Shown here: positions 127 to 46,812 of the stretch, one piece after another | Numbering within the stretch: the stretch's first letter is position 1 | Layout of the letters: each line of letters starts with the position of its first letter | Source: Bacillota bacterium | GTDB taxonomy: Bacteria > Bacillota > Clostridia > Saccharofermentanales > Fastidiosipilaceae | Length of the DNA stretch: 49,740 nt | Direction of reading: 5' to 3' | Assembly: GCA_030057555.1 (NCBI GenBank) | Contig: JASGUU010000051.1 | Location: forward strand, 1 to 49,740 | Program-made: the position numbers and the translations under genes | The notes under the pieces: model-generated | Told to the model about the DNA's origin: nothing | Databases searched by the model: none | The model's input: only the letters and a program-made list of their open reading frames with translations

Positions 127-342
127 CCAGAAACGACCTCTTTGTGGTCAAGATGGCGAGTAATCCAAATCTCTTTTTGGATTACTCCTCGTTTTGACCA
201 GAAACCGCCTCTTTGTGGTCAAGATAGCGAGTAATCCAAATCTTTTTTTGGATTGCTCTTCGTTTTGACCAGAAACGACCTCTTTGTGGTCAGGATAGCG
301 AGTAATCCAAATCTTTTTTTGGATTACTCCTCGTTTTGACCA
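127..342. repeat. 71-bp tandem hairpin repeat, three copies
   Basis: Units start at 127, 198 and 269 (period exactly 71), with the next half-site at 340. Each unit holds two hairpins. One has TTGACCA and TGGTCAA arms around a 15-nt loop starting GAAAC (for example 194-222). The other has GAGTAATCCAAA paired with TTTGGATTACTC (158-169 with 176-187). Copy 2 has TTGCTC in place of TTACTC, which keeps a U-G pair. The array lies between the IS3 end and the promoter of the DUF4358 gene. The same family recurs at 37441-37660. There are no variable spacers, so it is not a CRISPR array. Function unknown. Confidence 0.9.
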
Positions 343-32770: not shown

Positions 32771-34307
32771 TCAGCCGGCCGGCGGCCGGAAGGTCAGTAT
32801 CTGCAGCATAAGCAGACGCTCGAGTTCCGAAACGGCCGGATGCTCCGAGAGACGCAGCATCTGGCGGCGGCAGGTGCTGAGCCGCGCCCGGTCGAGAGTT
32901 CGTCCCTCCTTTATCAGCCGGTGCTGCCAGCAAAACAGCAGTTCGGCTGCTTCAATACGGACATGGGCGTGCGGGCTCTGCAGGCAGGCCTCAATCAGGG
33001 GCAGCCCCGAATGGGGCTCGCTGCGGAAGGCTTCGAGCAGGTGATGCACCTCCCAGGCGTCCAGGGCCTCCGCCGAGGGCATGAGATCTACCGTTTCCAG
33101 GGGCGGGCCCATGATCTCAGCGAGATCGATGAACTGCACGATACAGTCGAGGGTGTAGTCGGTGCCACAGTCCTGCGCGAGATGGCCGGCGGGATCCATG
33201 TGTCTGCCAAAGTCCTTTTCCCAGAGTCGCAGGATACATTCCGAAACAGGAATCTCGAGGTCCAGAGCGAGAAGAATGTATGCCGGATTGTCCCGCTCGA
33301 GCTCGCGGCAGATGGTCTCCCCGCAGCGTTCACAGGTGAGATATTCCTCAGTCAGGTCCAAAGTATCGCTTTCGTCCATCCCTTTGCTGAGCGTCTGCAG
33401 CAGATCATAGCGCGTGAAGCTGTCGGGATGCTCTGTAATCCGCTGGGCGAGGGCGGCGATGAAAGCCTCCAGATCCTCGTCGTCGACATAGTCCTCATCG
33501 TCGCCCTGCTGCAGTTCCAGATTGACGGCAAGGAGGGCGAAGCTGTCGAGCAGATCCACGTCGAGGCCCCTTCGGCAGCGCCTCTCGATCTGACAGAGGC
33601 GGTAGAAGGTGGGGGCGAAGAGCACGAGGAGGCCGTCCCCGCTGAGACGTGTCTCCAGAAGCAGTCTCTGCTCGGAGGCATTCAGACGATTGAAGAAGGC
33701 GGTAGAGTAGGCAAAGGCCTTCGTCCTCGCCGTGGCAATCAGGCGGGTGAGCTTCCGCTCGTCAGGCGGCCAGTCCGAGATGATGGGCAGGCAGAAGGGG
33801 GCGAAGGCCTCGTGGTTCGCCAGTGCCAGCAGGACGGGTGCCAGCTTCGCCCGCAGCGCCTGATCCGCCGTGAGGCCGAGTGCATCGAGGAGGATCAGGG
33901 CGGCCTGCAGAAGCTTCAGGGATCGGGTATTCAGGATGGTCTCGACCGCCCACTCGCTCATGCGCGCGAGCTTCGGCTGCTCGCGCCAGAGTGCCAGCTG
34001 TATGAAGGCACGGGCGCTGCGACTGATCATCTCCGGAGGACTGGCCTGCAGTGTGAGCTCCAGCAGGTGGAAATTCTGCGTGCTGCGCTGTCCCGGCCTG
34101 CTGTGTTTCCAGCATTTCAAAGATCCGGTCCAGCAGCATGACAGAGAGAAATTCGCTGAAGCTGTCCAGTGTCGGCCGGTCGGGCATGTCCCGGAGCAGC
34201 AGCGTTCCGCCGGCGGCATCTGTGATGGAGAGCTCGAAGTCGTCCGGCAGACGTTCACATTGGGAAAGCGCTTTGCGAATCTGTGCCTGGATGCTGCTGG
34301 AATTCAT
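32771..34307 (-). pseudogene. Unrecognised cytoplasmic protein, interrupted by a frameshift
   Basis: The frame starting at ATG 34307 (after CGAGGT) encodes a credible N-terminus with DDFELSITDAAGGTLLLRD and LDSFSEFLSVMLLDRIFEMLE. It becomes implausible after about 34110. Another frame then takes over (FHLLELTLQASPPEMISRSARAF onward) and runs to the stop at 32771. The switch requires one extra base, near the CCC/GG runs at about 34060-34115. Joined, it would be roughly 511 residues, largely helical, with an acidic stretch (QQGDDEDYVDDEDLE) and a CxxC pair in YLTCERCGETIC. No family recognised. Either a true disruption, a sequencing error or, less likely, programmed shifting. Confidence 0.65.
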
Positions 34308-34460: not shown

Positions 34461-36440
34461 TCAATCGGAATCTGCCTGGCCCTGTACCATGTCGTCTTGC
34501 GTCTGGTAGAGCGCGGGTTCTTCGGCGACCAGCGGTCCGTAGTCCAGAACATCGGCGTCCAAGCGTGCGAGGCGGGTCTCGCGGATGCGGGTCTTCAGGT
34601 AGCGGGCCAGCGGGAGATCGGTGCAGAAGACGCGGCAGCCTTTCATGCCACGGGTCATGAGCGTGCGGTAGGTGTTGCGAATGATGCGATCGGCCAGCCG
34701 CCGGGCTTCATCGGGATCGCTGCGGGCGAGTTTCCTGATGCCGCGGAGAGACGCGTCGGTGCTGGCGCGCTGCAGGAAGTCGGTCTGGATGGCGCCCTCT
34801 GCGTAGAACATGTCCGGTCCGATGATAACGCCGATGTACTCAAACTCGAGGCCCTGTGAAGTGTGGATGCAGCCGGCCTGACCGACGGAATCCGGTTCGA
34901 TCGCCCAGACACTCTGGTTCAGGTTCCAGCTCATGGTGAAATTGTGTTCCTCGATGACGATATCGTGGAATCCTTTGTTGCCGCGCTCGGCGGTCGGCCA
35001 TTCCCAGCAGTAGCCGGCGAGGATGCGGGCCTTGTTGTTGGCATTTCGTGCGCGCACCCAGGCTTCGAGCTCCTGTGGTGTGTCGACGACATCGATATCA
35101 TACTGGGTGTCGAGAACGGAGTATTCGCTGGCGCGGATCTGGAGCACATCGTCGAGCCAGGTGAGGTAGCCGTCCGAGCCGTTGCAGCGGAACTGCGAGC
35201 TGAGCGTTTCCGTGTCAAGCAGAGCGCCGGCCCGGGCGGCCTGACGCCGGATCTCGGCGACGGAGCCGATGTCCTGCAGGGAGATCATCTGATCCTCGTC
35301 GACAAAGAAGATGCTGCAGCGGCTGCTCATGATGATCTCGTAGATCTGATTCTCGCCCTGATTGCCGTAGAAGCCGGATTTTGCGGTGAGGCGGTGGGCC
35401 TCGTCGACGATGGCGACATCGAGGATGTCGTGCTTGAGTTCGTAATAATTGCCGGAGCCCTTGAAGAGGTTGTCCACACTGGACATTTTGCGATGGCCCT
35501 TGAGGCGGGAGCGGTAGACAAGACGCGGGGCGGAGTTACGGCTGATGTACTGGACCAGACGGCCGCGGGCGGTCAGTTCGACGAGCAGGTTGATGGCGAC
35601 GACGCTCTTTCCCGTGCCGGGACCGCCCTCGACGAGGAGGACGCGCTTGCGGCCGTCACGATGGGTGCGTTCAGCCATCGCGAGGGTGCGCTCGAAGACG
35701 ACTTTCTGGTCGTCGATCATGATGAATTCCTGATTGCCGTCGAGCATGGAAACGAGGCGGTCCTGCAGCGATTTGGAGGGGCGGATGCGGCCGCTTTCGA
35801 TCTCGTAGAGGATGTGCTTCCGGTCGCCGCGGCGTACGAAGCGCTTGACGAAGGCGCGCAGCGCATGTGTACCGGTCTGGTCAAAGAGAGGGACCTGACT
35901 GACGAGGTCATGAAAGCGCGGGTCGAGAAGAGGGTCGCTTCCGGGGCGGAGGGGGTAGTTGTGCAGGAAGGCGCAGGGATGGAGGCTGATGTGGCCCTGG
36001 TGGACGGCTTCGTTGAAGTCGCTCAGCAGGTCGGCGTAGGATTTCGCCTGATAGCAGGGGTGGGGCACCGCGCGGTAGGCACCGCCGACCCAGGTGGTAA
36101 TGAGGTCAACATCGTCCGTCGGCGTCCTGGTTTCCTCCCATTGCTTGAGCTCGATGATGACGGCGGCCTTCTGCGTCTCGTCGTCATAACCGCTGATAAT
36201 GAAGTCCACGCGCTTGGCCGTTCCGGGAATCATGTATTCGATCGCGACGCCGGCATCGCGCGGAATTTCGCGATCGCTCAGGACCATGTACATGTACTGC
36301 AGCGAGTTCTTCCAGGAGCGAACTTCCGACTGTGCCGGGCGGCGGAAACGCTGGCGCACCAGATCGTCGAGGTGATGGGCGAGCGTACCCGCCTCAGTGC
36401 CGGCGAGGAAGCCGGCTACGGTGTTGTGGTAGATGATCAT
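34461..36440 (-). CDS. DUF2075-type protein: PD-(D/E)XK nuclease fused to SF1-like helicase
   Basis: A 659-residue protein. The N-terminal part has the PD-(D/E)XK pattern: Glu68, Asp79 in RVDF, and Glu97-Leu-Lys99 in VIIELKQW. The second part is the DUF2075 (Schlafen-like) helicase core: Walker A GGPGTGKS (272-279), Walker B as DEAH at 346-349 in VAIVDEAHRL, VDEDQMIS, SQFRCNGSDGYL and the late motif CIHTSQGLEFEYIGVIIG. Its ATG overlaps the MazG-like gene's stop by 4 bases, so translation is coupled. Nuclease-helicase fusions of this kind are often suspected defence or DNA-repair proteins; activity here is inferred from intact motifs. Confidence 0.88.
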   Translation of the reverse strand: MIIYHNTVAGFLAGTEAGTLAHHLDDLVRQRFRRPAQSEVRSWKNSLQYMYMVLSDREIPRDAGVAIEYMIPGTAKRVDFIISGYDDETQKAAVIIELKQWEETRTPTDDVDLITTWVGGAYRAVPHPCYQAKSYADLLSDFNEAVHQGHISLHPCAFLHNYPLRPGSDPLLDPRFHDLVSQVPLFDQTGTHALRAFVKRFVRRGDRKHILYEIESGRIRPSKSLQDRLVSMLDGNQEFIMIDDQKVVFERTLAMAERTHRDGRKRVLLVEGGPGTGKSVVAINLLVELTARGRLVQYISRNSAPRLVYRSRLKGHRKMSSVDNLFKGSGNYYELKHDILDVAIVDEAHRLTAKSGFYGNQGENQIYEIIMSSRCSIFFVDEDQMISLQDIGSVAEIRRQAARAGALLDTETLSSQFRCNGSDGYLTWLDDVLQIRASEYSVLDTQYDIDVVDTPQELEAWVRARNANNKARILAGYCWEWPTAERGNKGFHDIVIEEHNFTMSWNLNQSVWAIEPDSVGQAGCIHTSQGLEFEYIGVIIGPDMFYAEGAIQTDFLQRASTDASLRGIRKLARSDPDEARRLADRIIRNTYRTLMTRGMKGCRVFCTDLPLARYLKTRIRETRLARLDADVLDYGPLVAEEPALYQTQDDMVQGQADSD

Positions 36441-36763
36441 TCACTGTCGAGCCTGTCGTAGCGCGTGCTTTTGCCGCGAGCCTTCGCGACCGGGTACTTC
36501 CGTTCGTTGAGGGCGAGCTTCTCGCGCATGATGGTGTCAGGGTCGAGGCCCAGATTCCAGGCCAGCATGTGCGTGTAGATTAAAACATCCGCGATCTCCT
36601 CCTGTACTTCGGAGAGCTCCGCGTCATCCGACCACTGGTAGTGCTCGAGCAGTTCGGCTGCCTCGATCGCGATGGACTTCGCCAGATTAGCCGGAGTGTG
36701 AAACTGCTCCCAGTCGCGTTCGGCGACAAAGCGTTGAATCCAGCTCTTCGTATCTTCTCTCAT
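36437..36763 (-). CDS. MazG-like nucleotide pyrophosphohydrolase
   Basis: A 108-residue all-alpha NTP pyrophosphohydrolase. The metal-binding signature is intact: AIEAAELLEHYQW (Glu-x2-Glu) and EEIADVLIYTHML (EExxD). It also has the typical start RFVAERDWEQFHTPANLAKS. Enzymes of this family split non-canonical or normal (d)NTPs to NMPs and pyrophosphate. The length equals the short MazG/RS21-C6-like form. ATG 36763 follows GGGGAGAG. It lies 34 bases after the upstream helical-protein gene and overlaps the nuclease-helicase gene, so all three form an operon. Confidence 0.9.
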   Translation of the reverse strand: MREDTKSWIQRFVAERDWEQFHTPANLAKSIAIEAAELLEHYQWSDDAELSEVQEEIADVLIYTHMLAWNLGLDPDTIMREKLALNERKYPVAKARGKSTRYDRLDSE

Positions 36764-36797
36764 GCTTCTCTCCCCAGGGCACTGCCCTTACGGTGCT

Positions 36798-37241
36798 TCA
36801 GCCGTTCAGACTGCGCAGCTCGGCATCCAGCTGGAATTCAATCCTGGTTATCTGGCGGGCCAGATGCTCCAGCTCGCCGAGGGTGGCTTTGATCTCATTC
36901 TGGACCCGGATATCCGTGAAGATGTTGTCAAAGACGAGATCGACGACCATGTCATAGCCTGTTTGCGAAGGGGCGCAGGGCGCAGCCAGCTGCACATCCT
37001 GCAGTTCGCGGCGCAGGTCCTCAAGAGCGCCGTCGAGGCGATACAGGCATGCCTGTGCGTCGCTGATCCGGCCGCGCTTCATGCCGCCCGACAGGAGGCC
37101 GCCTCCCAACATGTCGACAACACCCCAGCTGCGGGCACTTGACAGCTGCTGCTGGGCATCACGGATCAGGTTCAGTGCCCGGCCGGCCGCACGTTTGGCT
37201 TCCAGCAGTTCAGTTCTACGATCCTTCATGGTGACACACAT
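36798..37241 (-). CDS. Small helical protein with Gly-rich WGVVDMLGGG segment
   Basis: About 147 residues. The start is uncertain among ATGs at 37253, 37241 and 37229; 37241 has AAAGGA just upstream, although close. It is largely helical with a central glycine-rich segment (SWGVVDMLGGGLLSGGMKRGRISDA) flanked by possible coiled coils (LDGALEDLRRELQDV, EIKATLGELEHLARQITRIEFQ). I do not recognise its family, though similar proteins with a W-G-DM-GGG signature occur in Bacillota. It is the first gene of an operon with the MazG-like enzyme and the nuclease-helicase, which suggests a shared role. Confidence 0.75.
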   Translation of the reverse strand: MCVTMKDRRTELLEAKRAAGRALNLIRDAQQQLSSARSWGVVDMLGGGLLSGGMKRGRISDAQACLYRLDGALEDLRRELQDVQLAAPCAPSQTGYDMVVDLVFDNIFTDIRVQNEIKATLGELEHLARQITRIEFQLDAELRSLNG

Positions 37242-37440
37242 GATTCCTTTCATTGTGCAGGCTATCGATTACGCTTTCGATGATAGCACGCAGTTCTTCA
37301 GGTGCATGCGGGTGCTGGTGCCTGCGCTCAGGGCGAGGAACGATGCAGCGTGTTTTCGCGTACTTTGGCGAAACAGAAATGGGGATGCTGCTGTCTTCCT
37401 GTTTTGATGTGAATGATTCTGCCGTGCCTCTCTGACTTTT

Positions 37441-37660
37441 GTGGTCAGGATCGCTGGTTTCAAAATTGTTTTTTGGATAACCTCAAAGTTGACCAGAAAC
37501 GCGCCTTTCGTGGTCAGGATCGCGAGTTTTCCAAATTGTTTTTTGGATAACTCCCAAAGTTGACCAGAAACGGGCCTTTCGTGGTCAGGATCGCGAGTTT
37601 TCCAAATTGTTTTTTGGATAACTCCCAAAGTTGACCAGAAACAGACACGCCGTGGTCTGA
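37441..37660. repeat. 71-bp hairpin repeat, second locus
   Basis: GTGGTCAGG recurs at 37441, 37510 and 37581, and a degenerate GTGGTCTG at 37652 (offsets 69, 71, 71). Each unit has TTGACCA...TGGTCAG and GAGTT-TCCAAA paired with TTTGGA-AACTC. Compared with the first locus (GAGTAATCC/GGATTACTC) the stem letters changed on both sides with pairing kept. It lies between the MazG operon and the FAD oxidoreductase. The short open frames here are produced by the repeats. The rest of 37242-37804 shows no gene. Confidence 0.88.
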
Positions 37661-37710
37661 CACGTCTTTTCTTCTCGCCGTTTTCGCCACCGCACCTGCT
37701 GCTTTGCTGT

Positions 37711-46572: not shown

Positions 46573-46812
46573 TCCTGCCCCGAAACACGGGCACCAGCGG
46601 CTTTTTTGTCCACGCTTGGACAATTTTTCCGTTCCTGCCCCGAAACGCGGGCACCAGCGGCTTTTTTGTCCACGCCTGGACAAATTTTCCGTTCCTGCCC
46701 TGAAAACGGGGCACCAGCGGCTTTTTTGTCCACGCCTGGACAAATTTTCCGTTCCTGCCCCGAAACGCGGGCACCAGCGGCTTTTTTGTCCACGCCTGGA
46801 AAAAACAGGGAG
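46573..46812. repeat. 60-bp tandem hairpin repeat, about 3.8 copies
   Basis: Units start at 46573, 46633, 46693 and 46753 with an exact 60-base period; the last breaks off after the second hairpin's first arm at about 46800. Each has two hairpins: TGCCC with GGGCA around CGAAACGC, and TTGTCCA with TGGACAA around CGCC or CGCT (for example 46606-46623), the latter followed by T-runs. Copy 3 changes the first loop (TGAAAACG) but keeps the stem. As 60 is divisible by three the array is open in several frames and gives false repeat proteins. Function unknown. Confidence 0.9.

Follow-up and report, generated by a model that had tools for sequence, protein, structure and literature searches.

A MazG-like pyrophosphohydrolase and a Schlafen-type nuclease-helicase form a widespread gene pair with a candidate role in defence

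Gene content of the locus

The window analysed here, a 49,740-nucleotide stretch of a contig from a Bacillota bacterium (Fastidiosipilaceae), contains three consecutive genes on the minus strand. An earlier note, made from the sequence alone, had described them as an operon, and all three open reading frames (ORFs) were confirmed where it placed them. The gene at 34461..36440 encodes a nuclease-helicase of 659 aa (DUF2075/SLFN-g3), identified by PF09848, invariant motifs and fold matches. The gene at 36437..36763 encodes a MazG-like NTP pyrophosphohydrolase of the DCTPP1/RS21-C6 type (108 aa), identified by PF12643 and by dCTP pyrophosphatase structures. The third gene, at 36798..37253, encodes a small helical/coiled-coil protein of 151 aa, for which no Pfam family was found. 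The overlap of the pyrophosphohydrolase gene with the nuclease-helicase gene, described in the earlier note, was found to be 4 nt (ATGA); the third gene is separated from mazG by a 34-nt gap and is possibly co-transcribed with the pair.

The helicase gene is present as a single copy in the genome. Comparison with the sister species gave dN/dS values of 0.15 for the helicase, 0.04 for mazG and 0.29 for the third gene, indicating that the three genes are real and under selection. Window and sister species are collinear over the segment 31533-41160, so the pair is settled and inherited at a fixed site within the genus. The flanking genes in the window encode a HEAT-like protein, a deacetylase and an FAD oxidoreductase, and no recognisable defence island was found at this locus.

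Downstream of the helicase, at 32771-34307, the gene for the HEAT-like protein is split into two overlapping frames in the window, and the sister species has it as a single ORF of 509 aa; this frameshift-like state appears to reflect a pseudogene or an assembly error. It was rejected as a component of the system, since among the other loci it adjoins the pair in the sister species alone.

Two short repeat families were also observed. Three tandem copies of a repeat of about 71 bp lie at 37436-37670, in the interval that separates the operon from the FAD oxidoreductase gene, and the family has 109 matches genome-wide, which rules out an element specific to the operon. Arrays with 71-bp periodicity were found in the sister species, and these also match window positions 127-342. 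The second family, at 46573-46799, consists of several offset copies in steps of about 60 bp and is common to the window and the sister-species contig.

The nuclease-helicase

The large protein matched PF09848 (SLFN-g3) with E=2.5e-96 and 323.5 bits against a curated cut-off of 24, covering the whole profile (1-354/354), with Walker A and Walker B conserved, which places it in the SLFN-g3/DUF2075 family. Its PD-(D/E)XK nuclease domain occupies residues 1-225, with D79, E97, K99, Q131 and Y135, and its SF1 helicase domain residues ~236-620, with Walker A GGPGTGK at 272-278 and DEAH at 346-349. The earlier note had described the nuclease and ATPase motifs as intact, and they are conserved across 33 diverse homologues (44-61% identity): D79, E97 and K99 were invariant in all 33, giving the D...ExK signature of the PD-(D/E)XK superfamily, while Q131, Y135, GGPGTGK and the D, E and H of DEAH were invariant or nearly so and A348 of the DEAH box was merely near-invariant.

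Modelled at full length (pLDDT 84), the protein matched SF1 helicases. The top Foldseek match was human SLFN11 (E=8e-11), the best Z was obtained with UvrD (21.9, rmsd 3.7 over 310 residues), and Dna2 and RecD2 were matched as well. When the N-terminal 225 residues were modelled alone (pLDDT 93), almost all of the matches were PD-(D/E)XK enzymes, including Can2, Cdn1, Card1, restriction enzymes, NucC and Shedu; the scores were modest yet consistent and support the PD-(D/E)XK core fold (best Z 8.4; 1xmx superposed with an rmsd of 3.1 over 129 residues). A search of the PDB with the full-length sequence gave no match, and no domain that would read modified bases was detected. The conserved motifs and the predicted folds together show that the large protein joins a PD-(D/E)XK nuclease to an SF1 Schlafen/UvrD-type helicase. 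A longer form, of about 795 aa, whose C-terminal extension is uncharacterised, was observed at L042-L044, L047, L052-L055, L059-L062 and L065, mainly in Marinobacter and Omnitrophota.

The MazG-like enzyme

The small enzyme matched PF12643 with E=1.5e-16 and 60.8 bits (Pfam cut-off 27) and aligned end to end with structures of dCTP pyrophosphatase 1/RS21-C6 (E=1.8e-16). Its metal motif ExxE...ExxD corresponds to E34xxE37...E56xxD59, and E34, E37, E56, D59 and K82 were 100% conserved in 68 linked homologues. Family score, metal motif and alignment thus show it to be a predicted dNTP pyrophosphohydrolase of the DCTPP1 type. The 108-aa enzyme probably destroys DNA building blocks, with dCTP or a modified dCTP as the putative substrate. 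The gene differs from DCTPP1/RS21-C6 in its operon link to a nuclease-helicase.

In the sister species the MazG-like protein (L002:9441-10004) carries an extra C-terminal tail rich in Asp/Pro/Ser repeats, ahead of the ATGA overlap with the helicase. On a Nocardiopsis plasmid (L161:13549-14909) an HNH endonuclease gene directly follows a MazG-like gene with a 4 nt overlap, which suggests that MazG-like enzymes may partner other nucleases too.

Linkage of the two genes

Homologous loci were collected with one genome per species, giving 80 loci from hosts that include Bacillota, Bacteroidota, Marinobacter, candidate-phylum bacteria and haloarchaea. In 60 of these 80, the helicase had a MazG-like match next to it or nearby. 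Based on called genes, 62 of 92 loci had MazG immediately next to the helicase, mostly on the same strand and at spacings of -14 to +36 nt, and among 20 further loci from the order of the window it was adjacent in 14, either upstream or downstream. The two genes occur either way round across loci. Divergence of the helicase correlated with that of MazG over 62 pairs (Spearman 0.59, permutation maximum 0.20), a value that partly reflects the common descent of the host genomes. We conclude that MazG and the nuclease-helicase are a real and widespread functional pair, each gene being ordinary when taken singly.

About a quarter of the helicase homologues are without MazG, and seven genomes with a solo helicase contained no PF12643 gene at all; MazG is therefore a dispensable or accessory partner. 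No other pyrophosphatase was seen to stand in systematically for the missing MazG, and only scattered NUDIX neighbours were present. In the literature searched, we found no paper that pairs DUF2075 with MazG or with phage defence, and differently named systems are possible.

The third gene behaved differently. Its start in the sister species corresponds to 37229, giving 143 aa, and this is likely the start in the window too. Of the 80 homologous loci, that of the sister species (L002/G001) was the only one with this gene next to the pair. Its homologues in the order are unlinked to the pair, and either are small standalone proteins or form the C-terminal portion of larger coiled-coil proteins (two such). 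The earlier note had made this gene part of the operon system; as it accompanies the pair in the sister species alone and its distant homologues are unlinked, it was rejected as a component and is an unrelated local neighbour. This lack of conservation, which the earlier note had named as grounds for refutation, bears on the third gene only.

Distribution and mobility

The helicase was found in 12 of 58 relatives, and full-strength matches were scattered through the order of the window. Plasmids carried it in archaea, Bacteroidota, Bacillota (Priestia) and Gammaproteobacteria (Halomonas), and helicase and MazG occurred together in one Microcystis phage record. The helicase is rare in viral and phage collections; this absence of a direct arms-race sign counts against a reading as defence. 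In the tree, haloarchaeal copies are nested among Bacillota copies, and presence of MazG changes at least 11 times. An E. coli copy was sought with the DNA of the Marinobacter pair, and no match was found within the range of blastn similarity.

The family as a whole is thus patchy, horizontally moved and clustered with defence genes, though the window's own locus lies outside defence islands. A core, vertically inherited pair never found near defence genes, which would have spoken against the earlier note, is not what we observed, despite the inheritance at a fixed site within the genus.

Defence genes in the neighbourhood

The earlier note had proposed that the neighbourhoods of DUF2075 and MazG pairs be searched for known defence genes. 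We sampled 17 loci with 119 neighbour genes (helicase and MazG excluded). The controls, which were not island-matched, were 114 genes located elsewhere in the same genomes, at a distance from the pair. With a threshold of E<=1e-20, matches to 165 PADLOC families were obtained for the neighbours, a count inflated by generic helicase/ATPase cross-matches, and to three for the control genes, all of regulator type. At 1e-100 the neighbours still matched SspC, SspF, HerA, type IV REase, type II MTase and REase, Hhe and PDC candidates. A known defence gene was present at 11 of the 17 loci and in none of 16 control regions (Fisher p=9e-5), in a sample that is modest and not fully phylogenetically independent (two Marinobacter loci).

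The defence genes counted at these 11 loci were PDC-S37/Hhe at L006, a type IV REase at L007, L047, L052 and L058, MTase II at L010 and L012, SspC at L013, a type II helicase at L014, OLD/GajA at L025 and SduA at L032. For a subset the PADLOC matches were assigned to loci by hand, and those of L047 and L052 came from Pfam architecture and the family count. The most recurrent neighbour cluster is a PLD/ResIII/DUF3427 protein, which PADLOC names type IV methyl-directed REase. In Priestia a DUF3578 gene directly precedes mazG, and C5-cytosine methylases lie near the pair at some loci. DISARM DrmD and Wadjet JetC were found near two loci outside the 17-locus set. Annotated plasmids carried BREX-4, R-M genes, an ABC-three-component system with type I R-M, or Druantia. 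The pair is thus linked over large evolutionary distances and tends to sit among defence genes.

Comparison with known systems

PADLOC profiles for PDC-S41, AbiO and Nhi matched 33, 32 and 31 of the 33 homologues, respectively, and the window protein matched all three weakly (E 1e-8 to 1e-11). Nhi and AbiO (PDLC02372 and PDLC02350) are likewise single-chain nuclease-helicases with an SF1 helicase core, but their match in the window protein is limited to that core (residues 237-420; 198-306/470 of the Nhi profile and 175-329/468 of AbiO) and leaves the nuclease domain unmatched, so we did not file the protein as Nhi or AbiO; the pair described here also differs from them by its MazG partner. 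In the case of Nhi, a single gene encodes the anti-phage nuclease-helicase, which is described as depending for its activity on variants of the phage SSB (PMC12904381). PDC-S41 (PDLC05014, 657 positions) has a similar length, its match includes the N-terminal nuclease region, and its best E is 4.4e-20; however, it matches the window protein weakly (1.9e-11), and its entry is that of a single-gene candidate that lacks MazG. The literature searched contained no paper on PDC-S41.

Human Schlafen group 3 proteins (SLFN11, SLFN14) have a similar helicase domain, but their N-terminus is the Schlafen tRNase core, whereas that of the window protein has a PD-(D/E)XK DNase-type fold. This fold is common to the CRISPR ancillary nucleases Can2, Card1 and Cdn1, to Shedu SduA and to restriction enzymes; the window protein differs in having no CARF domain and in the fusion of the nuclease to a helicase.

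Possible function of the pair

We consider it probable, on good indirect evidence from the predicted domains, the neighbourhoods and the likeness to known systems, that the pair is a mobile two-gene defence module in which an AbiO/Nhi-like nuclease-helicase acts with an optional partner working on the nucleotide pool. The helicase would load on DNA ends or on single-stranded DNA bared by replicating phage or plasmid DNA, and the attached nuclease would then degrade that invader DNA, as proposed for the related Nhi. More tentatively, MazG would be an accessory enzyme removing dCTP or 5-modified dCTP, so that either the replication of the invader is starved, or modified cytosines are kept out of the host DNA, which is thereby spared. 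Starvation of the invader, protection of the host from its own nuclease, and cleanup after damage may all fit the sequence. The earlier proposal of a candidate conflict system is thus supported for the mazG/helicase pair, which has the linkage, the patchy cross-phylum spread and the defence neighbours, and is not supported for the third gene.

A housekeeping pair for DNA repair is unlikely. The nuclease-helicase would handle stalled or broken DNA in the manner of Dna2, RecD2 and UvrD, all of which are among its fold matches, and MazG would clear damaged dCTP, as mycobacterial MazG degrades 5-OH-dCTP (PMC3855555). The fixed site and purifying selection within the genus agree with such a role, but presence of the pair is patchy even inside the family and the order, plasmids carry it, and its strong co-location is with defence genes and not with repair genes. 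A narrower form of the defence module would be modification-dependent restriction, in which the nuclease-helicase attacks DNA with modified cytosines and MazG keeps modified dCTP from the host DNA. A high affinity for dCTP and modified dCTP has been reported for DCTPP1, whose type MazG shares (PMC7162842), and the methyl-directed type IV REase of the commonest neighbour cluster, the DUF3578 gene of Priestia and the C5-cytosine methylases point the same way. Nevertheless, we regard this form as quite unlikely, since the protein has no detected modified-base reader domain, several carriers (seven of them genome-wide) are without MazG, and the neighbours include many systems unrelated to cytosine modification.

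That the two genes only share mobile islands, by chance or by hitch-hiking and with no joint action, would account for the helicases without MazG and for the repeated changes of MazG presence on the tree; the tight same-strand linkage across phyla despite swaps of gene order, the 4-nt overlaps and the correlated divergence make it very improbable. A three-gene operon with the small helical protein as regulator or sensor of the pair seems hardly credible: the same strand, the 34-nt gap, the synteny and the purifying selection hold in both species of the genus, but the small protein is absent beside the pair in all other loci examined and its homologues elsewhere are unlinked.

With the defence module as the favoured reading, a bolder form of it would be a widespread, unnamed two-component defence system of bacteria and archaea, in which a dCTP-pool enzyme is coupled to a Schlafen-type helicase-nuclease and sets self against non-self through modified cytosine nucleotides; we give this form a low probability.

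Significance

Human relatives of the Schlafen group-3 helicase domain are involved in virus restriction, and DCTPP1-type enzymes are usually regarded as housekeeping. If confirmed, the pair would be a common cross-domain system uniting control of the nucleotide pool with nuclease-helicase attack, two strategies usually treated separately, and it would provide a bacterial setting both for the Schlafen group-3 helicase domain and for DCTPP1-type enzymes.
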